This document shows positions 41,146 through 64,000 of a stretch of 64,000 nucleotides of DNA, one piece after another (the stretch's first letter is position 1; each line of letters opens with the position of its first letter). The notes beneath the pieces were generated by a model that was given only the letters and a program-made list of their open reading frames with translations, had not been told where the DNA came from and made no database searches. Both the position numbers and the translations under genes were made by a program. Location of the stretch: assembly GCA_001314545.1 (NCBI GenBank), contig LIHN01000009.1, positions 124,001 to 188,000 of the forward strand, read 5' to 3'. Source of the stretch: Bacteroidetes bacterium HLUCCA01. Lineage in GTDB: Bacteria; Bacteroidota; Rhodothermia; Balneolales; HLUCCA01.

Positions 41146-41231
41146 TGCGGATGCGACCCGAATAACCTATACTGCATTTGCTGGCAAGCAAGATAGACGC
41201 AAAAGAACCCGACTGCATCAATACCACCGTC

Positions 41232-44200
41232 ATGGCACCATCCTCCCCGGATATGGAAAACCCACCACCTGAGCGATCCGGTAAGGTCGATGTGGATATA
41301 ACCAGGGGAAGGGCCACGGTATTGGAAACAGATCATGGCAGGAAAGCGGATTTGGCTGCAAACCGGGGAACTTCCAAAGACGCGAAAGCAGATCATGTCG
41401 GGAAGGTCGATGTGGGCAGAAACCAATCGCATCCCAACGCCACCCCAACCGCACAATCCGCGAATAACACCCAACAGCCCGGATCTCAAATCGCCCTCGC
41501 CGCCCCGCCCTCCGGACTCTACGAGCAGCTCATCACCGACCTCCTCGCCCAGCGCCTGGAAACCCTCCCCACCGGCACCTACCACATCCAGACCCACCCC
41601 GTAGAACCCCTCGAAGCCGCGCGCTACCTCACCCAGCACGTCTCCGCCATCCTCCACTACGCCCTCAGCGCCATCCCCGCCAGCCAGCGACCCCTTGGAC
41701 AAATCGACCTGGCCAACAAGATCATCCGACTCCTCGCCCGGGCCATCAACGACAGCGACCTCCACGGCGACCTCATCCACACCGAAGGCCGCCTCCTCGA
41801 AGCCGTCCTCAACCGGCTCCACCACCCCCACGCCGACCTGAAAGCCCGCATCCGCGAGATCATGCCCCACACCCGGCTCTCCCAAAGCGAGCTGTTCACC
41901 GGAAACCGCGCCGGCGTCTCCCTCGAAAGCGAAATCAACAAAGAAATCGCCTCCTCCGACGAAATCTGCTGGCTCGTCTCCTTCATCAAATTCTCCGGCA
42001 TCCGCACCCTGATGCCGGCCCTGCGCGAATTCACCCGTCGCGGCAACCTGCGCATCATCACCACCTCCTACATGGGCGCCACCGACGCCAAAGCCGTCAA
42101 CGTACTCGCCCGCCTGCCCAACACCCAAATCAAGGTCTCCTACAACCCCGAACACGAACGCCTCCACGCCAAAGCCTACCTGTTCCTGCGCAACAGCGGC
42201 TTCCACACCGGCTACATTGGCTCGTCCAACCTCTCGCGCTCGGCCCTGACCAACGGCCTGGAGTGGAACATGAAAATCACCACGCGGGAGGTGGCCCACA
42301 TCATCGACAAATTCCGCAAAACCTTCGACACCTACTGGGCCGACAACGAATTCGACCTGTACGATGTGGACCGGGATGGAGATCGACTCCAACGCGCCCT
42401 GACCCAGCAACGCATGCGGTCCACGGGGAACACCAGCGACCAGGCCGGACCCGGCGGCGCCATCACCACCTTTTTCGAAGTCAGACCCTACGCGTTTCAA
42501 CAAGAAATCCTGGATAAACTCCACGCCGAACGCACCCTGCACCATCGCACACGTAATCTGGTGGTCGCCGCCACGGGCACGGGCAAAACCGTCATCTCCG
42601 CCTTCGATTTCAAGCGGTATCGCGCGGCCCACCCCGAAGCCCGCCTCCTGTTTATCGCCCACCGCAAGGAAATTCTGCACCAGTCGCGCACCACGTTTCG
42701 GCATATCCTGCGCGATGGAAACTTCGGCGAAATCTGGGTTGACGGCGCCACGCCCGACCGCTTTGAATGCGTCTTCGCCTCGGTGCAGACCTTCAATTCC
42801 CAGCAGGACCGCCTCGCCCACCTGCCGCCCGACTACTTCGATATGGTGATCATCGATGAAGTGCATCACCTCACCGCCGCCAGCTACCGCACCGTACTCG
42901 AGCGATTTCAACCGGATGTGCTGCTCGGACTCACCGCCACGCCCGAACGCATGGACGGGGGCGACATCACCGAGGACTTCGACGGTCGTATTGCTGCGGA
43001 AATCCGCCTTCCGGAAGCCCTCAACCGCAAACTGCTTTGTCCGTTTCAGTACTTTGGCGTCACCGATGCGGTCGATTTACGCGATGTAGCCTGGAAAAAC
43101 GGTAAATACGACGCGGCGGCCCTCACCCGGATCTACACCGCGGGGGATATGGTCGCCCGACAGCGGGTGCAGTCCATCATGGATGCCCTCGAACAGTATT
43201 GCACCGATCCTGCCGGGGTGCGCGCCCTTGGGTTCTGCGTCACCAAAGACCATGCCCGGTACATGAGCGATGCGTTTCAGCAGGCCGGATTCAAGGCCGA
43301 TGTGCTGGTTGGCGAAACTCCGCGTGAGCAGCGGGAGGCGATGCGGGCCCGACTTCAGCGCGGGGAGCTGAACTACCTGTTTGTGGTCGATGTGTTCAAC
43401 GAGGGGGTCGACATTCCGGAAATTGATACCGTCTTGTTTTTACGTCCGACCGAGAGTTTGACCGTGTTTTTGCAGCAGCTGGGTCGGGGATTGCGACTGG
43501 CCGATGGTAAAGATGTGCTCACCGTGCTCGATTTTGTAGGCAATGCCCGGGAAGAATACGACTTCGAACACAAATTCCGGGCCTTGATTGGTCGCACCCG
43601 GCAGTCGGTGCTCAAAGAACTGGAACACGACTTCCCCCACCTGCCCCTGGGCTGCTCCATCGTGCTGGAGCGACAAGCCCGGGAGTACATCCTGGAGAAT
43701 ATACGTCGGGCTACGTCGCTCAAACGACCGAAAATGGTGCAGAAGATTCAAGGGTTCCGGCATCAAAGCGACCGTCCTCTCACCTGGCGTAACTTCATGG
43801 AATTTCATCACATGGAAGCGCCCATGCTGTACAAATTCAAGATCGGCGGGAAGTTGATCGGATGGAATCGACTTTGTGTGGAAGCGGGCGTGCTCGAAGA
43901 CTTCCGGGAGCCGCTGGAGATGGAGCTATCGCGGTACATCGGTACGCGACTGCTCACCACCCAATCGGAAAGTTACTTCCGTTTTGTGCTCGCGCTGTTG
44001 GATGCAGGGTGTGATGTGGAGGTTTTGATGAAGGATACGTATTCACAAAATGTGAATACCGATGTCAACAACAGTCGGTCCAAAAGTTCACATAATGTGA
44101 ACATGAATAATGAGGGCAAGCAACGAGAATATTCACAAAATGTGAACATCTATGTTGCCAAAAGCCACCCCAATAGTTCACAAAATGTGAATACTGATAC

Positions 44201-45017
44201 CAACAACAGCCGGTCCGGTAGTTCACATAATGTGAATATCGATATCAACAACAGCCACCTCAATAGTTCACATAATGTGAATACCGGCACCGTCAGCAGT
44301 CGGCCCAAAAGTTCACAAATTGTGAACTTCTTCAGCCCTGCCGAGACCGAAAAGTTCGCACTCATGCTCCACTACGACATCTGGCAAACGGATGGTCCGG
44401 CCAGCGGAGCAGCGAATCTACGTGAGAGTCTGCTTCGACTCAACAACAATCCCGTGATGCTAAATGAAATTCGGGAAGTCACCAACTACCTGCTCGACCA
44501 GCTTGACGTCATCGAAAAACCGACCGAAAGCATTACCGATTTCCCCCTTCGTATCCACGGTCGATACAACCGCGACCAGATTTTAGTCGCCATGCAGATG
44601 CACACCTGGGAGAAGTCCTCCAGCAATCGCGAAGGCGTTGCGGAAAACCGGGATCTCGGCGCCGAAGCCCTCTTCGTCACCCTCAACAAAAACGAAGAAG
44701 ACTACTCCTCCAGCACCATGTACGAAGACTACGCCGTCAACGAAAACACCTTCCACTGGCAAAGTCAAAATGCTTCACGGCCCGAACGTGGTCGCGGCCT
44801 CTCCTACATCCAACACAAAGAAAACGGCAAACAGATGCTCCTGTTCGTCCGTGAACACAACAACGACCCGTACGGAAACACCCTGAGCTACGTCTTCTTA
44901 GGTCCCTGCGACTACATCGACCATTCCGGCGCCAAACCCATGAACATCAAATGGAACCTCCACGAACCCATTCCCGGCCACCTCCTCAACGAAAGCCGAA
45001 AACTCGCGGCGGGGTGA
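41232..45017 (+). CDS. PLD-nuclease/SF2-helicase/DUF3427 protein with two internal repeat arrays
   Basis: About 1,261 residues from ATG 41232; a TTG at 41178 is possible. In order: a 60-bp-repeat leader (residues about 14-73), the conserved start [19 protein letters not shown] (about residue 95), a phospholipase-D nuclease domain ([26 protein letters not shown]), an SF2 helicase with Walker [14 protein letters not shown] (about 442) and VIIDEVHHL (about 539), helicase motif [13 protein letters not shown], then the DUF3427 region. The latter is interrupted by seven 15-residue repeats (about 937-1032). The ending [20 protein letters not shown] is typical of DUF3427 helicases found in defence islands. 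The 5-prime half is far more C-rich than its neighbours. A nuclease-helicase attack on foreign DNA is likely but inferred. Confidence 0.85.
41271..41450 (+). repeat. Three in-frame 60-bp repeats
   Basis: Units start at 41271, 41331 and 41391, with the best match in the first 24 bases (GAGCGATCCGGTAAGGTCGA, GATCATGGCAGGAAAGCGGA, GATCATGTCGGGAAGGTCGA). They encode 20-residue repeats beginning [18 protein letters not shown] and DHVGKVDVG. Confidence 0.75.
44042..44326 (+). repeat. Seven 15-bp palindromes at exact 45-bp spacing
   Basis: Palindromes TTCACAAAATGTGAA or TTCACATAATGTGAA (the last is TTCACAAATTGTGAA) start at 44042, 44087, 44132, 44177, 44222, 44267 and 44312, each exactly 45 bases apart. 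The 30-base intervals are related but diverged (for example ACCGATGTCAACAACAGTCG against ACTGATACCAACAACAGCCG; interval 2 is unrelated). The array is in frame in the helicase gene and encodes 15-residue repeats with SSHNVN or YSQNVN. Confidence 0.95.
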
Positions 45018-45021
45018 TTAT

Positions 45022-45414
45022 ATGAGCAAATTATACCGTATAGTACAGTCGAAAGGAGCAAAAGACAGAGAGAATCCTTTATCTCAAAAAGCATTAGAAC
45101 AATTAAGAATCTACTACAAACAATACAAACCTACGACCTACTTATTTGAAGGCCAGTTTGGCGGGATGTATTCTGCAACAAGTATTCAGACCCTATTTCG
45201 GAAAGCCTTGAAAGAATGCAAGATCAACAAAAAAGCAACGGTTCACACCTTGCGACACAGTTATGCAACACATTTATTGGAAAGTGGCACCGATTTACGC
45301 ATTATTCAAGAGCTGTTGGGGCATAAAAGCAGCAAGACGACAGAGATATACACTCATGTGAGTCAGCAAACCAAACAAAAAATACCAAACCCACTTGATC
45401 AACTTGGTCTGTAA
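45022..45414 (+). pseudogene. Truncated tyrosine recombinase (C-terminal catalytic part)
   Basis: 130 residues forming the second half of an XerC/D-like tyrosine recombinase: [13 protein letters not shown] (beta-hairpin with Lys), [20 protein letters not shown] (His-x-x-Arg), [18 protein letters not shown] (His and the nucleophile Tyr). The core-binding N-terminal domain and the first catalytic Arg are missing, cut off 5 bases after the helicase stop, so it cannot be active alone. It lacks the extra patch that marks integron IntI proteins. Its 3-prime end points at the attI-like site and cassette that follow. Confidence 0.85.
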
Positions 45415-45422
45415 TAATGCAC

Positions 45423-45494
45423 AATAAACATGCGTATATACATCTATATAGGTCATATATACGCATATTTATTGCGTATATAAACAAGTTGGGC
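45423..45494. other. Recombination-site-like hairpin and GTTGGGC boundary
   Basis: An 18-base inverted repeat, AATAAACATGCGTATATA (45423-45440) with TATATACGCATATTTATT (45456-45473), pairs at 17 of 18 positions. It is followed by a third GCGTATATA copy (45474-45482) and then ACAAGTTGGGC ending at 45494. GTTGGGC fits the integron core GTTRRRY. Three copies of a GCGTATATA motif next to a recombination core, just downstream of an integrase gene, resemble an attI-type site. Confidence 0.55.
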
Positions 45495-45507
45495 ATAATT
45501 TGTGAAA

Positions 45508-46539
45508 ATGGAAGAATTAGTAAACAGAATAGTTGAAATAATTGGAGATTATCGATCAGGTAGCGAAGCTGAGATTGACAGGGATCGTGTAATTTCATGG
45601 GTCGAACAGTTTGACGAATCAGATAGAGAGTTTTTATTGACAGAACTGATCCACATATTACCAAAATCATATATATCAGAAAAAGAAGCGAGAGAGACTT
45701 TGGGTGGCTCATTCGAATATTTAAGAAAGAAATACAATCAAGAATCAATTGATGAATTTTTACAAAACTCCAAGTTTTTGAGTTGTCAAGGGCTACATAA
45801 AAGTCAAACAAAACTTCTTGAGTTTTTACGAGAGTATGCCGAAGAAGAACTGAATTTTAATTTCGATGATTGTGGTATTGAAAGTGAAAAATATTGGGTT
45901 TATCTTGACGATGTTCTAGCTTCAGGTGGTACTTTCAGAAGAGAAATCATTGAAAAAATTAATGATTATGGTACGGAACGGTTCGTGGAAGACGACATTA
46001 AAATTATTTCAATCTTCTTTTTTCTTCATAGTTGGGGATGTGCCAATTCAAAGTATGTCATTCTAAAAGATTTAGGGAAGAATATTGCTTCTAGGATTGA
46101 TTTCCATAGAGTTTTTGAAATTGAAAATGACCCCCGAATTAACTATTTCAATCCTAATCCGGCTTTTAACCACGCATTCCCTATGGATAGTTCTGAATCT
46201 TGGAGGGAATTTTTAGAAACCCTTGATGCTGACAGGCAAGCACAATATGCATTTAGGCCTCCAGAAAAACCAAATAAAGAAAGCTTTTATTCTTCCGCTG
46301 AAAATCGGAATAGATATGAACAAATTGTTTTAAACAAAGGAATTGAAATTATTGAAAGAATTCATAATGTAGGCGCTCCAGTTCGACCTTTGGGTTTCAC
46401 TAGTCCTAGTTACAAAACTTTAGGAGCAGGTAGTCATGCATTCACATGGAGAAATATTTCTAACACTTGTCCACTAGTTTATTGGTGGGAGAGCAATGGT
46501 TGGTTTCCTTTATTTTCAGTAGCAAACCGTGGAATCTAA
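45508..46539 (+). CDS. Phosphoribosyltransferase-like (PRTase-CE type) protein
   Basis: 343 residues from ATG 45508; a GTG two codons earlier is also possible. The signature is KYWVYLDDVLASGGTF (about residues 129-144), a PRPP-binding loop of type I phosphoribosyltransferases: hydrophobic strand, two Asp, then SGGT. It is preceded by a helical N-terminal part and followed by a region with no family I know (HRVFEIENDPRINYFNPNPA; TCPLVYWWESNGW). It resembles the PRTase-CE group proposed from conflict-system genomics. The coding DNA is strongly AT-rich. It overlaps the NADAR gene by 11 bases, so the two act together. Confidence 0.75.
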   Translation: MEELVNRIVEIIGDYRSGSEAEIDRDRVISWVEQFDESDREFLLTELIHILPKSYISEKEARETLGGSFEYLRKKYNQESIDEFLQNSKFLSCQGLHKSQTKLLEFLREYAEEELNFNFDDCGIESEKYWVYLDDVLASGGTFRREIIEKINDYGTERFVEDDIKIISIFFFLHSWGCANSKYVILKDLGKNIASRIDFHRVFEIENDPRINYFNPNPAFNHAFPMDSSESWREFLETLDADRQAQYAFRPPEKPNKESFYSSAENRNRYEQIVLNKGIEIIERIHNVGAPVRPLGFTSPSYKTLGAGSHAFTWRNISNTCPLVYWWESNGWFPLFSVANRGI

Positions 46540-47119
46540 GAATAACACTAGAAAATATCATAAATCAGAATGCATCGCATTTAGAAGTACTAAAGAAGAA
46601 TTCGGTGCTCTTTCTAATATGGCGGGTGGATTTCCTATAAAAATTGAAGAACACTGGATCAAAAATTCAGAAGTGCTTTATCAAGCTTTGAAATACCCAA
46701 ATTATCCTGAGATTCAAAAACATATTTTTCACGTAAAAAGTCCAATTTTCGCAAAAAGAGTTTCCCGGAAATATAGAGAATATGAAAGAAATGATTGGTT
46801 AAGAGTAAGGTTCAAAATCATGAAGTATTGCCTAGAGTTAAAACTTCAAAACAACTTTCAACGATTTTCAAAGGTTTTATTGTCTACTAATGACAAACCT
46901 ATTGTTGAGTACTCCAAGAAAGATAAAGTTTGGGGTGCTGTTGATTCAGGAGAATATTACGAAGGTGTGAACGCATTAGGGAGACTTCTTATGGAGCTTC
47001 GCGAAAAAATAAAAGATTCAGATACCGAGTTTGTAGCTACCCCACCAGACGTGGAAGGTTTACGAATATTGAATATAGATTTAAAAAAAACTATGCCCAA
47101 CAATGGGTATAAAACATAG
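46529..47119 (+). CDS. NADAR-family protein
   Basis: A 196-residue protein from a GTG start that overlaps the previous stop. It carries NADAR (YbiA-like) features: CIAFRSTKEEFGALSNMAGG, then WIKNSEVLYQALKYPNYPEI, then KVWGAVDSGEYYEGVNALGRLLMELR. NADAR enzymes are N-glycosidases; YbiA-type members act on riboflavin intermediates, and others remove ADP-ribose from guanine in DNA and serve as antitoxins to DarT-type toxins. Coupling to a phosphoribosyltransferase-like gene suggests the pair makes and erases, or senses, a ribosyl modification. Function here is inference. Confidence 0.82.
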   Translation: MESKNNTRKYHKSECIAFRSTKEEFGALSNMAGGFPIKIEEHWIKNSEVLYQALKYPNYPEIQKHIFHVKSPIFAKRVSRKYREYERNDWLRVRFKIMKYCLELKLQNNFQRFSKVLLSTNDKPIVEYSKKDKVWGAVDSGEYYEGVNALGRLLMELREKIKDSDTEFVATPPDVEGLRILNIDLKKTMPNNGYKT

Positions 47120-49841: not shown

Positions 49842-49900
49842 ATGGCAATTTCAGTGTAAACTGACCCACCCGTTTCACTCGAAGCTGACCCACCCCTCGG
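49842..49900. mobile_element. Likely insertion sequence end remnant
   Basis: Contains AATTTCAGTGTAAACTGACCC, then two ACTGACCCACCC/GCTGACCCACCC copies separated by about 17 bases. Iterated TGACCCACC motifs are typical of IS21-family terminal repeats. No transposase frames remain, so this is a solo end or scar. Confidence 0.4.
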
Positions 49901-50023
49901 AATAATGTACCTTTTTAACTAAACCAAGGCATACCGTAGCGAAACCACTAATTAAAGTGTAATTCAAAACGAATGTAGTTTATATTGTCTGATCTGCATT
50001 GTGTTCAACGGAATTGATTATTC

Positions 50024-53000
50024 ATGCAAAACATTACCTTCTTCGATACTGAGGTTGATCAACGGAATCAGACAGTAGTAGACTTTGGTGCGATAAAAGG
50101 CAACGATAGCTATTTCCATGGTGCTTCTGTACATGGATTTGAAAACTTCCTTAATGGAACCGAATATCTGTGTGGACACAACGTAGTACACCATGATGTA
50201 CAATACATCCGCAACCTCCTTCAACGAGTCGGTATTGGTCCTAACAATATTATTGATACGCTTTTCTTGTCGCCTTTACTCTTTCCAAAGAATCCATATC
50301 ATGCGTTGGTAAAGGATGACAAGCTTCAAACGGAGGAGTTAAATAACCCATTAAATGACTCCAAGAAAGCCAGATACTTATTTCAAGATGAGGTTGATGC
50401 ATACCAAAAACTAGATTCAGATTTAGCTCATATTTACTTTTTGCTCCTTCACCAAACGGGTGAATTTCGCGGGTTTTTTAGGTTCATGGGTAGCGTTCAC
50501 CCAAAGCTCGAACTTGTTGATCTGATAAAGAGACGCTTTAAAAATGAAGTGTGTGATGGGATCAACTGGAGCAGATTGGCCGACTCAGAGCCAATAGCGC
50601 TGGCCTATGCCTTGTCACTTATTGAAGCAATGAAAGACGGTGAAGGCCAAGCATCGATAACTCCACCATGGGTTTTAAAAAACTTCCCGGATGTTGAACG
50701 GATTCTTTCTCAACTAAGAAACACGCCGTGTGTTCAAGGCTGTTCCTACTGCGATAGTAAGCTTGATATACATCTGGGTTTAAAAAAGTTCTTCGGATTT
50801 GAGTCCTATCGAAAGTATGATGATGAGCCTCTTCAGGAGCAAGCCGTTGCAGCCGCTGTTAATCATAAGTCTATCATTGCAGTATTCCCAACTGGTGGCG
50901 GAAAATCGATCACTTTTCAAGTACCGGCTTTAATAAGTGGTGAATCTTCACGGAGCCTAACGGTGATTATTTCACCGTTGCAATCGTTGATGAAAGATCA
51001 AGTTGACAATCTTGAAGAGCACGGTATCACCCAAGCTGTTACCATAAATGGGCTATTGGATCCGATTGAACGCGCGAAATCGTTTCAACGAGTTGAAGAT
51101 GGCTCAGCTACACTTTTGTATATATCCCCAGAATCTCTGCGATCACGAACGATTGAGAAACTGTTACTCGGTCGCAAAATAGCTCGGTTTGTTATTGATG
51201 AAGCGCACTGTTTCTCAGCATGGGGACAAGATTTTAGGGTTGATTATCTCTATATCGGCGACTTCATCAAGTCTCTTCAAGAAAAGAAGAAATTATCTGA
51301 GGGAATACCTGTATCCTGTTTTACCGCTACCGCTAAACGCAAAGTAATTGAAGACATAAAAGATTACTTTCGTGATAAATTAGGGCTTGATTTAGACGTT
51401 TTTTCGTCAAGTTCATCCAGAAAAAACCTGACGTATCGTGTTTTTCAAAAGGATAGCAACGACGATAAGTATTTTGCTCTCCGTGACTTAATAGAGGAGA
51501 AGAACTGCCCAACGATTGTCTACGCATCTAGGACGAAAACAACCGAGTCACTTGCGAAACGGCTAAGTGATGATGGGTTTAATGCGCGTGCATATCACGG
51601 AAAGATGGAAGCCAAGGTCAAGACATTGAATCAGAATGAGTTCATTGCTGGAAATGTGGGCATTATGGTGGCGACCTCTGCTTTTGGAATGGGGGTTGAC
51701 AAAAAAGACGTGGGTTTGGTTGTGCACTACGAAATCTCGGATTCGTTGGAAAACTATGTTCAGGAAGCTGGTCGTGCAGGAAGAGATGAAAATATCGTGG
51801 CCGATTGCTACGTACTCTACAATGAAGAAGACCTTGGAAAGCACTTTGTAATGTTAAACCAGACAAAGCTATCCATCAAGGAAATTCAGCAGGTTTGGCG
51901 AGCCATTAAAGACTTGACGAAATTGAGGTCAAAAGTTTCTAACTCAGCGCTTGAAATCGCACGTAAAGCAGGTTGGGATGATGCCGTTGCTGAAATAGAA
52001 ACCAGAGTAAAAACGGCAATAGCTGCTTTGGAAGGTGCTGGGTACTTAAAAAGGAGTCAGAATGTACCCCGTGTTTTCGCAAATAGTATTCTGGCTAAAA
52101 ACGCACAAGATGCTATCGACAAAATTGAGGCATCAAACAGATTTGATCAAAAGCAAAAAGTAACTGCTACCCGTATCATTAAAAAACTTATTGCGAGTAG
52201 GAGTCGGAAAGGTAGTCCTGATGATCAAGCTGAATCTCGTATTGACTATATCAGCGATCATCTGGGAATTACTAAAGAAGAGGTAATTAACACCGTAGGC
52301 TTACTCCGTGAAGAAAAAATCTTAGCCGATGATCAGGACTTGGCTGCTTATATAAGGAGAACCGAGCAAAAAAATCGATCCCTTCAAATTCTAAAGACCT
52401 TCATCAAACTGGAAAGCTTTCTTTTAGATCGCGTGAAGGTACCCGATGCTGTCGTTAATATTAAAGAGCTTAATGAGCTAGCAGAGCAAGAGGGATTACT
52501 GGATATTAGTACGCAAAAGATTAAACGTATTTTAAACTTCTGGGTGATTCGGAAACAGATAACACAAAAAATATCCAGGCAATCAAAGAATCATTTGAAA
52601 TTAGAGCCTCGTATCAAGCTTCAAGAAATGAGAGAACGGCTCGAAAAACGTCAAGAATTATCTGCTTTTATTTTATCACACTTGTTTGAACAAATTCCCG
52701 AGAGTGATTTGGACGCTACCGATTCTCAGACAGAAGAAGTTTTGGTGGAATTCTCAGTTCATGCTTTGAAAAAAGCATATCTAGCTAGTGAATCGCTGTT
52801 TAAAGTGGATGTAGACATCGCTGATATCGAGGATGCCCTTTTTTATTTGTCACGCATCGAGGCCATTAAAATCGAAGGTGGTTTCATGGTCATACACAAT
52901 TCATTGACAATTGAACGGCTGGAAGAAAACACAAAAAAACAGTATACAAAAGACGATTATCAAAAGCTTAACGATCATTATGAGAACAAGACGCAGCAAA

Positions 53001-54907
53001 TTCACATTGTAGGTGAATACGCGAAAAAAATGATCGAGGATTATTCCGGGGCTCTGCAGTTTGTTGAAGACTATTTTCAACTAAATTATTCTGCTTTTTT
53101 GAAACGGTATTTCCCTGGAAGTAAGCTAGATAACCTCAAATTGAAAATGACTCCGGCAAAGTTTCAGCAGCTTTTCGGGGATCTATCTCCTCCTCAGCTA
53201 AGTATAATAAAAGATAATGAGGCGAGATATATCGTAATTGCTGCAGGTCCCGGCAGTGGCAAGACGAAGGTCCTGGTACACAAATTGGCATCGTTATTAC
53301 TAATGGAGGATGTGAAACACGAGCAACTACTTATGCTCACATTCTCGAGGGCAGCCGCAACTGAATTTAAAAAACGCTTAATTCATCTGATAGGAAACGC
53401 AGCTAATTTTGTCGAGATAAAAACCTTCCATTCCTATTGTTTTGACTTACTCGGGAAAGTAGGGGACCTCGATAAATCCAATTCGATTCTCAAAGTAGCT
53501 ACGCAAAAAATAATCGATAATGAGGTCGAGCAGAGTCGAATTACAAAAACGGTACTGGTTATCGATGAAGCGCAGGACATGAATGAAGATGAATTTGGAC
53601 TTATCCGAGCGTTAATGTCAAAAAATGAGGAGATGCGTGTAATTGCTGTTGGTGATGACGACCAGAATATCTTTGCGTTTCGAGGATCAAGCAGTGAATA
53701 CCTTCAGCGTCTTATCAGTCATCACGATGCTGCAACGTATGAACTACTCGACAACTATCGAAGTAGTGTTGAATTGGTCCAATATTTTAACAGCTTTGTG
53801 TCGAAAATTAATCATCGTCTCAAGAAAAACCCGATCATATCTCGAAAGTCAACCGGTGGTAAAATTCGAATCATTAAACATGACGAGCAAACACAGAGAA
53901 ATTCCACGCTGATGATTCCGCCATTAGTGGATGATATTATCTCTATCGGTCTAAGTGGAACATGTGGCGTGTTAGTGAAGACCAATTATGAGGCGTTGCA
54001 GATAACAGGCCAGCTGCTCAAAAACGGATTTCCAGCTAAGCTAATTCAATCCAATGACGGTTTCTTACTTTATAATGTAGATGAGCTTCGCTACTTTTTT
54101 AACCTTTTAAAAAACGGGGATAACGATAAATATTTTATTACAGATGAAGAATGGGAGAATGCTAAGTCTAGGCTTACTACTGTATATGCACGAAGTACCA
54201 AACTTGAGCTGTTGTTAAATCTGACCAATGACTTTGAAGTAACAAACCCGAAAAGAAAGTTTTTGTCAGATCTAGAAGTATTTATTCGAGAGTCCAGCCT
54301 TGAAGACTTACATCGTCATTATGGAGAATCTATACTTGTATCGACTATACACAAAGCCAAGGGAAGGGAATTCGACAATGTTTTCCTCCTATTGGACAAC
54401 TTTAGGATTATTGATGACGCATCAAAACGCTTACTCTATGTGGCGATGTCCCGCGCCAAATCCCTGCTTAACGTTCACACTAACAACGATTGCCTCAAGA
54501 ACACCTTTGCAAATAACCTTCACTTTATCACACATGGAAATGGTTATAACCCGATAAATGAGATTGTTCTGCAGCCTACGCTGAAGGATGTATGGCTAGA
54601 CTTCTTTATCAGCAAGCAACAGTTTTTGAATCGCGCCATATCTGGGGACAAGCTTACAATCAATGGCAATTTGTCTCTATCACTTAGTGGCCAAGAGGTA
54701 GTTCGTTTTTCAAAAAAGTTTACCAATGATAGCATATTGCCCCTACTGGGTGATGGGTATAGAATGAAAGAGGCCAAAGTCAACTTTGTCCTCTGGTGGC
54801 AAAAAGAGGATAGTAATCGGGAAATCAAGGTTATTCTACCTGAAATAATTCTGGAAAAAAGTGGTGACCGGGGCGATGAGCATCGGATTGGTTTGAATGG
54901 GGTTTAA
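50024..54907 (+). CDS. Exonuclease-RecQ-UvrD fusion protein
   Basis: A 1,627-residue protein. Residues 1-150 form a DEDD-type 3-prime exonuclease fold: FFDTEVD (Asp8, Glu10), GHNVVHHD (Asp58) and AYQKLD (Y-x3-D). Residues about 270-900 are a RecQ-like helicase: VFPTGGGKSITFQVPAL, VIDEAHCFSAWGQDFRVDYL, QEAGRAGRDE, and a long helical RecQ C-terminal part. Residues about 1050-1520 are an SF1 UvrD-type helicase: IAAGPGSGKTKVLVHKLAS, VIDEAQDMNEDEF, VGDDDQNIFAFRGSS, VSTIHKAKGREFDNVFLL, LLYVAMSRAKSLL. Two helicase motors of opposite usual classes plus an exonuclease in one chain point to DNA processing, most likely in phage defence given the neighbours. AT-rich relative to flanks, stand-alone. Confidence 0.9.
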   Translation: MQNITFFDTEVDQRNQTVVDFGAIKGNDSYFHGASVHGFENFLNGTEYLCGHNVVHHDVQYIRNLLQRVGIGPNNIIDTLFLSPLLFPKNPYHALVKDDKLQTEELNNPLNDSKKARYLFQDEVDAYQKLDSDLAHIYFLLLHQTGEFRGFFRFMGSVHPKLELVDLIKRRFKNEVCDGINWSRLADSEPIALAYALSLIEAMKDGEGQASITPPWVLKNFPDVERILSQLRNTPCVQGCSYCDSKLDIHLGLKKFFGFESYRKYDDEPLQEQAVAAAVNHKSIIAVFPTGGGKSITFQVPALISGESSRSLTVIISPLQSLMKDQVDNLEEHGITQAVTINGLLDPIERAKSFQRVEDGSATLLYISPESLRSRTIEKLLLGRKIARFVIDEAHCFSAWGQDFRVDYLYIGDFIKSLQEKKKLSEGIPVSCFTATAKRKVIEDIKDYFRDKLGLDLDVFSSSSSRKNLTYRVFQKDSNDDKYFALRDLIEEKNCPTIVYASRTKTTESLAKRLSDDGFNARAYHGKMEAKVKTLNQNEFIAGNVGIMVATSAFGMGVDKKDVGLVVHYEISDSLENYVQEAGRAGRDENIVADCYVLYNEEDLGKHFVMLNQTKLSIKEIQQVWRAIKDLTKLRSKVSNSALEIARKAGWDDAVAEIETRVKTAIAALEGAGYLKRSQNVPRVFANSILAKNAQDAIDKIEASNRFDQKQKVTATRIIKKLIASRSRKGSPDDQAESRIDYISDHLGITKEEVINTVGLLREEKILADDQDLAAYIRRTEQKNRSLQILKTFIKLESFLLDRVKVPDAVVNIKELNELAEQEGLLDISTQKIKRILNFWVIRKQITQKISRQSKNHLKLEPRIKLQEMRERLEKRQELSAFILSHLFEQIPESDLDATDSQTEEVLVEFSVHALKKAYLASESLFKVDVDIADIEDALFYLSRIEAIKIEGGFMVIHNSLTIERLEENTKKQYTKDDYQKLNDHYENKTQQIHIVGEYAKKMIEDYSGALQFVEDYFQLNYSAFLKRYFPGSKLDNLKLKMTPAKFQQLFGDLSPPQLSIIKDNEARYIVIAAGPGSGKTKVLVHKLASLLLMEDVKHEQLLMLTFSRAAATEFKKRLIHLIGNAANFVEIKTFHSYCFDLLGKVGDLDKSNSILKVATQKIIDNEVEQSRITKTVLVIDEAQDMNEDEFGLIRALMSKNEEMRVIAVGDDDQNIFAFRGSSSEYLQRLISHHDAATYELLDNYRSSVELVQYFNSFVSKINHRLKKNPIISRKSTGGKIRIIKHDEQTQRNSTLMIPPLVDDIISIGLSGTCGVLVKTNYEALQITGQLLKNGFPAKLIQSNDGFLLYNVDELRYFFNLLKNGDNDKYFITDEEWENAKSRLTTVYARSTKLELLLNLTNDFEVTNPKRKFLSDLEVFIRESSLEDLHRHYGESILVSTIHKAKGREFDNVFLLLDNFRIIDDASKRLLYVAMSRAKSLLNVHTNNDCLKNTFANNLHFITHGNGYNPINEIVLQPTLKDVWLDFFISKQQFLNRAISGDKLTINGNLSLSLSGQEVVRFSKKFTNDSILPLLGDGYRMKEAKVNFVLWWQKEDSNREIKVILPEIILEKSGDRGDEHRIGLNGV

Positions 54908-54995: not shown

Positions 54996-55443
54996 CTACC
55001 CCCGAAACAATACCTGTTGGTGGTATTCTAAATTCTCACGGCTGGGCCAGTGCTGGGGGTCTCCGGGTAGCCAGATTTTGCGGTTTTCCAGTTCGTAGTA
55101 GGTTTTGCCGTTGTTGAATTCGTCTTTGAGCCGGGGGCTGACGCGGAAGGTGTAGTCCGGATCCACAGTGACATATCCGCGATCGTAGAGTTTATGGATG
55201 TCCGACCGCAACAATATCCCATTTTGAATATCGTGACTTCCCTCCTGGGCATACGGTTTAATGTGTGCCGCTGGTTTCCCCAAGGTGGGCTTTTTGAGTT
55301 TAAAGAAAAAAGAGTTCGCCTTCTTTGAGGGTGCTGAACCCGGCGTTACCCATGGTTCGCCAGAAGTTGAGCTCCTCCACATCGGTTCTGCGCACGTGGT
55401 AGCTGTACCAGTCGAAATCGGTATTTCCGACGAATAGATTCAT
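54996..55443 (-). pseudogene. Decayed HNH endonuclease gene
   Basis: The minus strand from ATG 55443 reads MNLFVGNTDFDWYSYHVRRT then DVEELNFWRTMGNAGFSTLKEGELFF, the start of a well-known HNH endonuclease family. It then meets a stop because a run of six A (55306-55311 on the plus strand) shifts the frame by one. The other frame continues FKLKKPTLGKPAAHIKPYAQ and NGILLRSDIHKLYDRGYVTV to 54996, the C-terminal HNH core. The roughly 150-residue central part is deleted. Both a frameshift and a deletion make it non-functional. Confidence 0.85.
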
Positions 55444-60819: not shown

Positions 60820-60946
60820 GAGTGATTGTATATCTTTTTGTGTATCAATGCTTAATTGATTCGACTGTTAACGATTATGTAGCAAAGATCATATCAATTA
60901 TATTGCTGCAACCATTCGCATCCCCTTTAACAAAACGTCTTTGTGT

Positions 60947-63085
60947 ATGAATAAACTACGGCAAGTCATCCAACGACTAGAGCGAGAAGAGCACCTCATC
61001 CATTTTTTAGATGCTGCTGAAAAACTCTACCACCATCTTGGCTTGACTAGGGATAACCCCAAAACCGCCGTGACAGTACTAAACAACCCAAAATGGAGGC
61101 TGGGTGTTAACCTCCATGCCCGGCTTGTTCTGGCTCTGTATAACAAACAGGGGAAAGACAAACTCTGGATAACAATGCGCAAATCTGACGCAATTAAGAT
61201 TAAAGAGATTGAACGAATTAGCGACAACTCTTTTGCACTTCAGAAGGGTGAAGATGACGATGTGGTTGCCGTTACGGTCAGTGCCAAACAGTTTATTCGC
61301 CAGAAAGATGAACTACTAAGTGGGTTGCTAGCAATGGCAGGGATTTACAGCGACCTCAGGAAATCTACCAACTATAAAAAGTACCATAACCACGAATTGG
61401 AAGAGCTTATCACCAGTCCTACTTTACGTGAAGAACTGCTAAAGGATTCTGAAACATTCTATTTCAAGCATCTAATACATCGATATAAAGAGTACTGGGG
61501 AACAGCTCCGGTAGACGATGAGATATTTAAGTGGAAAGCTATCTCTCATTTTCAACGCCATTTTGACATGGATGCCGAAAACTTTGGTGCTATGTTAAAA
61601 GAGTGTTTCTCTGAACATACCAGGTTGTTTTATCACATCGGCTTAAGCGCTTTTCACTACATGGCAAGCTACAATCCGGATGCGATTAAAGACATTTTCA
61701 CCACGATTTCAAATCATGAAATGAGCCTATCAGCTCGTTTTAGTGCGGCCAGGCAAATGGCGGAAGAAATTGCCCGGCAGATATCAGACGATACGGCTAA
61801 ACCATTCAAACAACACTTCGATGAACGTCAGATGTCGGTAATCCTTGCATCTATGTTCCCAGATCGATATCCCATTTACAAAAATGACATCTACCAATTA
61901 CTCCTGGAACAGGTTTCCGGTGATAAACCTGCTTTGGCAGGGCTTAAGTACGAGCACTACTCCCAGCTGGCTGAACAATTTCGAGATACTATTAGTCGCG
62001 ACAAGGAACTGCAGTCACTCATCGATGAACGCATTGATGGCCATCCATTTAACTGGGATTCTTCCTTACTCATATTCCAAGATATTTTGTGGGTAAATAA
62101 ACGCATGAACGACACTGAGCCGGATGAATATGGGGAGAAAGATGATAGTAATGGAAATACTTCTGGCGAGTCGCAGGAATTGGATGTGGCAAAACTTGAA
62201 TTGACTGGTGAGAATATCCTCTATACCCGTGATGATATCCAAAATGACCTCTTCATGGATATCGGCAAGGTAGATGAAATTGTCGAATTACTCCTGTATA
62301 AAAAGAACATCATTCTTCAAGGTCCACCCGGTACCGGAAAAACATTCTTTGCAAAGCGTTTAGCCTGGTATATCATGGGTGAAAAAGATAACGATCGTAT
62401 CACGACCGTTCAGTTTCATCCATCATACTCTTATGAAGACTTCATCCGGGGGTACCGTCCGGTCAAAGATAAATTTGAGCTACGCGATGGATTGTTCATG
62501 GACGTATGCGAACAGGCACGTGCAAATCCGGAACTGAAGTACTTCATGGTAATAGATGAAATTAACAGAGGCAACCTGAGCAAGGTGTTTGGCGAACTGA
62601 TGCTTTTGATTGAGCATGATAAGCGAGGACCAGCTCACGCACTCACCCTGCCTTATTTCCGGGATAATGAGCCCGAATTCTACATACCGGAGAATGTGTA
62701 TCTGATTGGAACTATGAATACAGCTGATCGTTCCTTGGCAATGGTAGACTATGCACTTAGACGCAGGTTTGTGTTTATAACGATGGACCCCCAGCTGAAT
62801 GCTGCATTTAAAAAATATCTACAGCACTTGGGGCTGAATGAGGGTATTGCTGAAAAATGGGTTGAAAAAATCGAGTGGCTTAATGAACAGATTCGGTCAG
62901 ATTCAAGTCTAGGCGAGTCATTTTGTATTGGTCAAAGCTATTTCTGTACAGGTCAACCTATTGATGACCCTAAACGAAAGTTTGAACAAATAATCCGTTT
63001 TGAAATCGAGCCTCTTCTGCATGAATATTGGTTCGACGACGAGAAAAAAGTACGTCGTTTAATCACGGAGTTGTTGATGGCATGA
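60947..63085 (+). CDS. mcrB: McrB-like AAA+ GTPase/ATPase of a modification-dependent restriction system
   Basis: 712 residues from ATG 60947; a TTG two codons earlier is less likely. The N-terminal 440 residues are a target-recognition region of no family I can name (KLRQVIQRLEREEHLIHFLD). The AAA+ motor has Walker A LQGPPGTGKTFFAKRL (about 456), FHPSYSYEDFIRGYRPV, Walker B FMVIDEINRGNLSKVFGELM and the signature YLIGTMNTADRSLAMVDYAL then RRRFVF. McrB hexamers drive the McrC nuclease on methylated DNA. The stop overlaps the mcrC ATG by 4 bases. Confidence 0.94.
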   Translation: MNKLRQVIQRLEREEHLIHFLDAAEKLYHHLGLTRDNPKTAVTVLNNPKWRLGVNLHARLVLALYNKQGKDKLWITMRKSDAIKIKEIERISDNSFALQKGEDDDVVAVTVSAKQFIRQKDELLSGLLAMAGIYSDLRKSTNYKKYHNHELEELITSPTLREELLKDSETFYFKHLIHRYKEYWGTAPVDDEIFKWKAISHFQRHFDMDAENFGAMLKECFSEHTRLFYHIGLSAFHYMASYNPDAIKDIFTTISNHEMSLSARFSAARQMAEEIARQISDDTAKPFKQHFDERQMSVILASMFPDRYPIYKNDIYQLLLEQVSGDKPALAGLKYEHYSQLAEQFRDTISRDKELQSLIDERIDGHPFNWDSSLLIFQDILWVNKRMNDTEPDEYGEKDDSNGNTSGESQELDVAKLELTGENILYTRDDIQNDLFMDIGKVDEIVELLLYKKNIILQGPPGTGKTFFAKRLAWYIMGEKDNDRITTVQFHPSYSYEDFIRGYRPVKDKFELRDGLFMDVCEQARANPELKYFMVIDEINRGNLSKVFGELMLLIEHDKRGPAHALTLPYFRDNEPEFYIPENVYLIGTMNTADRSLAMVDYALRRRFVFITMDPQLNAAFKKYLQHLGLNEGIAEKWVEKIEWLNEQIRSDSSLGESFCIGQSYFCTGQPIDDPKRKFEQIIRFEIEPLLHEYWFDDEKKVRRLITELLMA

Positions 63086-64000
63086 GTTCAGCTATACCAA
63101 TTGAGAACCTATGTTATATGCTTAGCTATGCATGGGATATTCCGATTACAAGCAAGCACAAGGAATCGGGCATTGACGACTTTGAATCCCCTATTGAGTG
63201 GTTTTCCAGGTTACTATTGGTTGAGTGCAGTTACATATTCAGAAAAGGACTGCAAGTTGATTACAAGCCTGAGTTTGACGTTCTAAAAAAGGTGAGAGGT
63301 AGAATCAATGTTCGTGAAACAGCGCGTTTGATGTATCTCAAACATACTAGTGTATCATGTAATTTTGATGAGCTTTCAACACATACTACACTAAATATCA
63401 TTTTAAAATCGACTTTAACTTATTTATTGAGATCATATGATATCACAGCCTCCACAAGAAAACAACTTCGTGGCTTTTTCATCAAATTGGGTGATGTACC
63501 AATTCTGGATCCTTCTGGAATCGTATCTATAAACATTGGATACACCCGAAGCAACCGCTACTACCAACTGGCGATACATATCTGCAAATTAATCGCCTCC
63601 CAAATCTCTGTACACCAAGTAGGGAATGCTACTCTTTTCATCGACTACGAACGTGATCACGCAGCTTTAGCCCGGCTGTTCGAAAGTTTTGTACGAAATT
63701 ATTACACCCGCCACTTGACTGATGCTAAGGTTGGAGCGACAAACATCCACTGGAATTTTAATCCCACGGATGCAGCATCACGAGATATACTGCCCATCAT
63801 GCGTACAGATATTGTAATTGAAAAATCAGATCAGATAGTTATTGCTGACACCAAATTTTATGGAAGAGCCACCGGATTCAGGGAATATGAATCAGGAAAC
63901 AGGGAATCTTTACATTCTGGTCATTTGTATCAGCTAACTAGCTATATGACCCATTTTGCAAATGGCCATAACAAAGCATTAAAGGGTTTATTACTCTATG
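63082..64000 (+). CDS. mcrC: McrC-like nuclease subunit (runs off the right edge)
   Basis: The frame starting MSSAIPIENLCYMLSYAWD is the typical McrC/DUF2357 opening and stays open to the window end (306 codons seen). The PD-(D/E)xK nuclease core is visible: MRTDIVIEKSDQIVIADTKF, with Asp near residue 242 and Asp-Thr-Lys near 256-258. Together with McrB it cleaves modified DNA. The C-terminus lies outside the window. Confidence 0.92.
   Translation, partial: MSSAIPIENLCYMLSYAWDIPITSKHKESGIDDFESPIEWFSRLLLVECSYIFRKGLQVDYKPEFDVLKKVRGRINVRETARLMYLKHTSVSCNFDELSTHTTLNIILKSTLTYLLRSYDITASTRKQLRGFFIKLGDVPILDPSGIVSINIGYTRSNRYYQLAIHICKLIASQISVHQVGNATLFIDYERDHAALARLFESFVRNYYTRHLTDAKVGATNIHWNFNPTDAASRDILPIMRTDIVIEKSDQIVIADTKFYGRATGFREYESGNRESLHSGHLYQLTSYMTHFANGHNKALKGLLLY

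Follow-up and report, generated by a model that had tools for sequence, protein, structure and literature searches.

A single open reading frame (positions 50024-54907, plus strand) in the analysed stretch of 64,000 nucleotides from Bacteroidetes bacterium HLUCCA01 (hereafter, the window) encodes, from an ATG start, a protein of 1,627 amino acids in which a DEDD-type exonuclease domain, an SF2 RecQ helicase core and an SF1 UvrD/PcrA-like helicase core are joined in one chain. The gene is an accessory gene that has been transferred between phyla, and we prefer, with about even confidence, to explain it as a single-gene helicase-nuclease, spread by horizontal transfer, that would protect the cell or the carrier mobile element from foreign DNA. 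The delineation of the whole gene is based on the ORF, Pfam matches and homologue conservation. The single chain described in the original prediction is real: a search for the same domain order in other genomes retrieved more than 80 full-length one-chain homologues, most with 54-64% identity, and a chain conserved at full length in that many loci is far beyond chance.

The exonuclease domain (residues 1-125; 50024-50398) was delimited by conservation, the fold order in the predicted model and a weak profile match to PDB. It is followed by a helical linker with a conserved cluster of cysteines (residues 126-250; 50399-50773), the RecQ core (residues 251-620; 50774-51883; Pfam, NCBIfam and fold matches), a mainly helical middle region (residues 621-1045; 51884-53158; model, Pfam scan and cysteine positions), the UvrD/PcrA-like core (residues 1046-1500; 53159-54523; Pfam and fold matches) and a C-terminal region that is beta-rich in the predicted model (residues 1501-1627; 54524-54904), all on the plus strand. 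The middle region gave no Pfam match, and its cysteine positions revealed no post-core RecQ cysteine site. AlphaFold models were built for residues 1-700 (pLDDT 83) and 600-1627 (pLDDT 82.6), each from a 29-sequence alignment, and the PDB matches of both models in the fold search come chiefly from the helicase parts.

DEAD/Helicase_C Pfam matches cover residues 269-587, and the NCBIfam RecQ subfamily model TIGR00614 was matched with 275 bits (cut-off, 219.8), which places the protein in the RecQ family. Motifs I (residues 289-295), II (DEAH, 392-395), III (434-437), V (550-557) and VI (580-588) were located in this core, and its predicted model matches RecQ, BLM and RECQL5 structures with Z scores of about 29-34. 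The protein is not a canonical full-length bacterial RecQ: the match to TIGR01389, the corresponding model, scores 311.9 bits against a cut-off of 640.2 and stops at profile position 360 of 591. No HRDC domain was found in the protein. The UvrD-helicase/UvrD_C Pfam matches span residues 1058-1486, and the scores for PF00580 (107.6 bits; cut-off, 23) and PF13361 (75.6 bits; cut-off, 25.6) assign this part to the UvrD/PcrA-like SF1A helicases. It contains motifs I (1074-1081), Ia (1106-1112), II (DEAQD, 1181-1185), III (GDDDQ, 1210-1214), IV (1244-1247), V (1440-1447) and VI (1473-1478), and the predicted model matches UvrD and PcrA structures with Z scores of about 26-31 (up to 30.9). Walker A and motif II are separated by approximately 100 residues, compared with approximately 185 residues in Escherichia coli UvrD, and this shorter span suggests that the 1B subdomain may be reduced. 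Both helicase assignments of the original prediction are thus borne out by Pfam, motifs and fold, and that of RecQ also by TIGR00614.

The family is widespread but rare. In a scan of genome contigs, 170 relatives were confirmed and the best 80 of the 170 were analysed; nearly all of these are full-length (about 1,580-1,670 amino acids), with identities of 54-63%. The contig relatives belong mainly to Bacteroidota, with others in Bacillota, Fibrobacterota and one Thermodesulfobacteriota MAG, and overall the one-chain architecture is present, patchily, in at least eight phyla. The helicase residues and the acidic exonuclease residues are invariant across phyla. The family is also carried by plasmids and integrative elements: 12 plasmid records have a query coverage of at least 80%, annotated plasmid single-chain homologues occur in Bacteroidota, Campylobacterota, Pseudomonadota, Cyanobacteriota and Deinococcota, and about a dozen IMG/VR contigs contain a member. 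Within the phylum, 14 of the 394 sampled genomes (3.6%) carry the gene, as do 4 of 128 genomes of the order, and all 14 carriers keep at least one further, separate RecQ gene. No copy was found in a genome of the same genus, G380, though the sequence upstream of the genomic island described below is found there. In the tree, the nine classes are intermixed (31 class changes), the Bacillota, Fibrobacterota and Thermodesulfobacteriota members nest among Bacteroidota, and a Fibrobacter copy pairs with a Tannerellaceae copy with full support; the tree was built with FastTree, so that its long branches are uncertain, and binning errors in MAGs could account for single odd placements. Residence chiefly in core genomes alongside repair genes, which the original prediction had regarded as incompatible with defence, is therefore not what is observed, given the 3.6% carriage, the separate RecQ genes, the transfer between phyla and the presence on plasmids and integrative elements.

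The gene lies in an island of low GC content. Near 44.5 kb the GC content of the window drops to about 0.40-0.42, having been about 0.52, and it returns to about 0.5 around 55-57 kb; the gene itself has a value of 0.405, compared with 0.51-0.53 in the initial 41 kb. Matches to G380 occur in parts of the window as far as 45.5 kb and are almost lacking from there on. On its 5′ side the island contains a PLD-helicase-DUF3427 gene, an integrase fragment, a PRTase-CE/NADAR pair and a GmrSD-DUF4268 gene. Beyond the studied gene are HNH genes, a NUDIX gene, a second PLD-helicase-DUF3427 gene (752 bits to a PADLOC type IV restriction model) and a McrB-like AAA_5 gene with an overlapping frame that, judging from its sequence, is probably McrC-like (60941-64000 and L100:29-1129, running past the window end). 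The location among restriction and nuclease genes that had been noted for this protein thus holds, with GmrSD, two PLD-helicase-DUF3427 genes, HNH genes and McrBC in the island. Within the island the gene stands alone, with a gap of 240 bp upstream and a convergent HNH gene downstream, and scans for promoters and terminators yielded no signal above chance.

Several other features of the island were observed. The flanks of the first PLD-helicase-DUF3427 gene (41178-45017; 45022-45502) are directly adjacent to each other at two places in G380, and one of them is the 3′ end of an integrase; this gene apparently represents a 3.8-kb insertion at an integration hotspot. The overlapping PRTase-CE and NADAR genes (45502-47119; PADLOC PRTase_III-A and PDC-M42C) probably form a small conflict-system pair. 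In the gap upstream of the studied gene, positions 49842-49914 contain a relic of an IS21-like terminal repeat (the IS family was judged by eye), and the same sequence recurs in G380 (C7) beside an apparent transposase start. An HNH gene lies beyond the McrC-like frame, past the window end. The short HNH gene at 54996-55382 resembles the longer HNH gene just beyond the window end (L100:1776-2747), which suggests that the former may be a duplicated fragment.

Homologues are often found near restriction genes, integrases or plasmid genes. The near neighbours of homologues (142 proteins) matched 126 PADLOC families at E ≤ 1e-10, and the proteins within about 15-20 kb of five whole-genome copies (119 proteins) matched 207, type I restriction subunits foremost, whereas 131 proteins from elsewhere in carrier genomes (20 regions picked by hand) matched 6; these are counts of families, not proteins, to which one pAgo or HsdS adds many, and they are inflated by redundant models, but the contrast is still large. 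HsdM-type genes were seen within 10 kb in 2 cases, with 0.146 expected (Poisson P = 0.0096); in one genome, G033, a distance of 0.7 kb separates the copy from the HsdM match, which is followed by HsdS. The G033 homologue is also flanked, on the side opposite to this type I restriction operon, by a gene for a TIR-domain protein (L304:1269-2519). By these crude measures (PADLOC families and HsdM proximity), the family is enriched near known defence genes, an enrichment that the original prediction had proposed to score. Other homologues are situated beside genes for plasmid replication or partition (ParA/ParB, replication initiators) or SSB, and some are flanked by beta-lactamase-like, kelch, histidine kinase or peptidase genes. 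The 25 commonest families in the flanks of the IMG/VR copies include integrases, invertases, methyltransferases and ParB-like proteins, with no phage structural genes among them, and the gene was accordingly rejected as a phage core gene. No conserved partner gene was identified; the commonest neighbour cluster is shared by 10 of 82 loci, and its distance from the gene varies.

Defence is the probable function because the family is patchily spread, lies mostly on mobile DNA and often adjoins anti-virus genes. It is likely rather than certain because several homologues have ordinary or plasmid-maintenance neighbours, and the one-protein defence machine of the original prediction stands in the same way, favoured by the island, the enrichment and the accessory spread and weakened by those neighbours. 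The main rival is an enzyme for the recombination, replication or repair of mobile elements, which would process ends or forks or recombine the element on entry without acting in defence. The homologues located by ParA/ParB, replication initiators and SSB on plasmids, and the integrases and ParB-like genes that adjoin the IMG/VR copies, are consistent with such an enzyme, and pairs of a helicase and a 3′-5′ exonuclease are also known to act in repair, e.g. MrfAB in the case of mitomycin (PMC12458937). However, no gene of transfer or replication modules accompanies the family as a conserved partner, and several chromosomal copies reside in restriction islands. A role in mobile elements alone does not predict the enrichment of restriction models, though islands gather both kinds of cargo, and we regard this rival as possible but rather unlikely. 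For an action on recombining DNA, which had also been proposed, there is no specific support.

The exonuclease domain requires separate consideration. No Pfam exonuclease model matched it, even at E 0.1; its profile weakly matched DEDD exonucleases in PDB (best E, 4.5e-4), and the succession of strands and helices that the model shows agrees with a DnaQ-like (DEDD) fold, with pLDDT values of about 90 except in residues 91-110. Conservation was scored over 90 homologues, 89 of which possess the domain, and in these 89 of 90 the residues D8, E10, G51-H52-N53, D58, D78, L80, K97, P109 and D112 are invariant; H93 is nearly so. The resulting pattern (D8xE10, N53-x4-D58 and P109xxD112), with the acidic residues D8, E10, D58 and D112, the fitting fold order and the weak profile match, places the domain in the DEDD superfamily. 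DEDDh enzymes have a His five residues before the last Asp, and DEDDy enzymes have a Tyr four residues before it. At residue 107, the His position, 85 of the 90 homologues have Asn and 4 have Ser, and residue 108, at the Tyr position, is N, D or S. The domain was hence rejected as a member of either subtype. The Y127 to which the original prediction had pointed is Phe in 82 of 90 homologues, and the Y127…D131 motif is unconserved. The DEDDy label was therefore wrong, with N107 in place of the motif III His or Tyr and the exonuclease subtype unconfirmed, and exonuclease activity should not be taken for granted. As for the claim that all key motifs are intact, both helicase sets and the four acidic residues are present, and the DEDDy Tyr is not. 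In the linker before the RecQ core, C177, C236, C240 and C243 are each conserved in 86 of 90 homologues and would probably form a metal site.

A weak or dead exonuclease, serving as a sensor of DNA 3′ ends while the double motor strips or unwinds DNA, would be in keeping with the Asn that nearly all homologues have instead of the general base of motif III, and there is a precedent in pExoDinG, a pseudo-exonuclease fused to a helicase (PMC11981726). Such a sensor would be compatible with a role either in defence or in mobile elements, exonuclease activity being a separate question. The four acidic ligands, D78 and K97 are nevertheless invariant over several phyla, and H93 almost so. Because these residues are kept, catalysis is favoured, the retained acidic set pointing to what may be an active exonuclease site in which H93 could possibly act as a substitute general base; we consider the sensor possible but rather unlikely. 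RecQ and UvrD are both repair families, but a housekeeping host DNA-repair helicase is highly improbable, since the gene is carried by so few genomes of the phylum, is absent from G380 and is accompanied by another RecQ in every carrier, a distribution (14/394 in the phylum, 4/128 in the order) on which a core-repair reading was rejected.

For the preferred defensive helicase-nuclease, the nuclease activity, polarity, substrate, trigger and defence role that we infer would combine as follows. An end, a gap or a fork would be the site at which the protein engages DNA. Its two motors, RecQ and UvrD-like, belong to families that move 3′-5′ and would track along the duplex and open it, and the N-terminal DEDD domain would trim the exposed 3′ ends. 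Incoming or replicating foreign DNA would thereby be unwound and degraded, or kept from circularising. The joining of 3′-5′ motors to an N-terminal 3′-5′ exonuclease suggests an end- or fork-directed unwinding and trimming that may resemble WRN plus a second motor or, functionally, Hna.

Helicase-nuclease machines are among the commonest anti-phage effectors. If the protein is defensive, one gene would constitute a self-contained two-motor DNA degrader and a test case for how coupled SF1/SF2 motors distinguish foreign DNA from the cell's own; if it serves mobile elements, it would represent a RecBCD-like tool for recombination that is portable. The Asn in the DEDD active site poses a specific and checkable enzymological question. 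A full-text search of the open-licence literature found no description of the exonuclease-RecQ-UvrD architecture, an absence that is weak evidence. Databases already contain the sequences under generic names, the homologues being called 'RecQ family ATP-dependent DNA helicase' or 'UvrD-helicase domain-containing protein'. It is only tentatively suggested that they represent an undescribed, widespread defence family with tandem SF2 and SF1 motors in one chain and a non-canonical Asn DEDD exonuclease, a one-protein counterpart of RecBCD carried as mobile-island cargo.

Comparison with known defence-system models, which had been proposed as a check, revealed no dedicated PADLOC or NCBIfam model for this layout among the best matches listed. 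The protein may, with about equal chances for and against, work on foreign DNA in the manner of Hna or Nhi. Hna is a single chain with an SF2 helicase and a nuclease and acts in defence as a 3′-5′ ssDNA exonuclease (PMC13381803), and the likeness consists in having helicase and nuclease in one protein. Hna itself has 845 amino acids, a DinG/XPD-like helicase and a C-terminal PD-(D/E)XK nuclease, whereas the studied protein has RecQ and UvrD and an N-terminal DEDD domain; membership in Hna was rejected, as no PD-(D/E)XK domain was found in the Pfam scan and the helicases are RecQ and UvrD. Nhi is a single-gene nuclease-helicase defence system (PMC12904381), and the likeness is one of description, no Nhi model being among the 25 best PADLOC matches listed. 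The GajB subunit of Gabija resembles the UvrD half in sequence (up to 146 bits) and fold (8sm3), but the studied gene has no GajA partner and adds the RecQ and DEDD domains; Gabija was rejected because a gene for the GajA OLD-type nuclease is absent from the flanks and there is no conserved partner. Gabija and Nhi exemplify how defence by a helicase and nuclease can be tied to DNA ends or to phage SSB (PMC12407980, PMC12904381), and similar triggers would be plausible here.

The RecQ-like helicases DpdF and PsyrT resemble only the RecQ part (326 and 264 bits, respectively, to the RecQ core), and the studied gene is not adjoined by partner genes of either Dpd or PsyrTA. A Dpd system was rejected, since the DpdF match is confined to residues 251-664 and no other Dpd model appears in the listed matches of ten window genes, and so was PsyrTA, for which the PRTase-CE gene (45502-46539) has two genes between it and the studied gene and there is no conserved neighbour. 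In ExoDinG and MrfAB, a 3′-5′ exonuclease is coupled to a helicase, with functions in replication stress or repair (PMC11981726, PMC12458937), but their helicase families differ from those of the studied protein. WRN likewise joins an N-terminal DEDD exonuclease to a RecQ core; the studied protein differs in being encoded by a bacterial accessory gene, in its additional UvrD core and in its DEDD motif III, and the HRDC domain was not found in it. RecBCD, AddAB and AdnAB share with it the combination of two motors and a nuclease for DNA ends, and the UvrD part aligned with AdnB, AddA and RecB in the fold search; in contrast to these complexes, the studied protein unites an SF2 and an SF1 motor in a single chain and carries a DEDD rather than a RecB-type nuclease.
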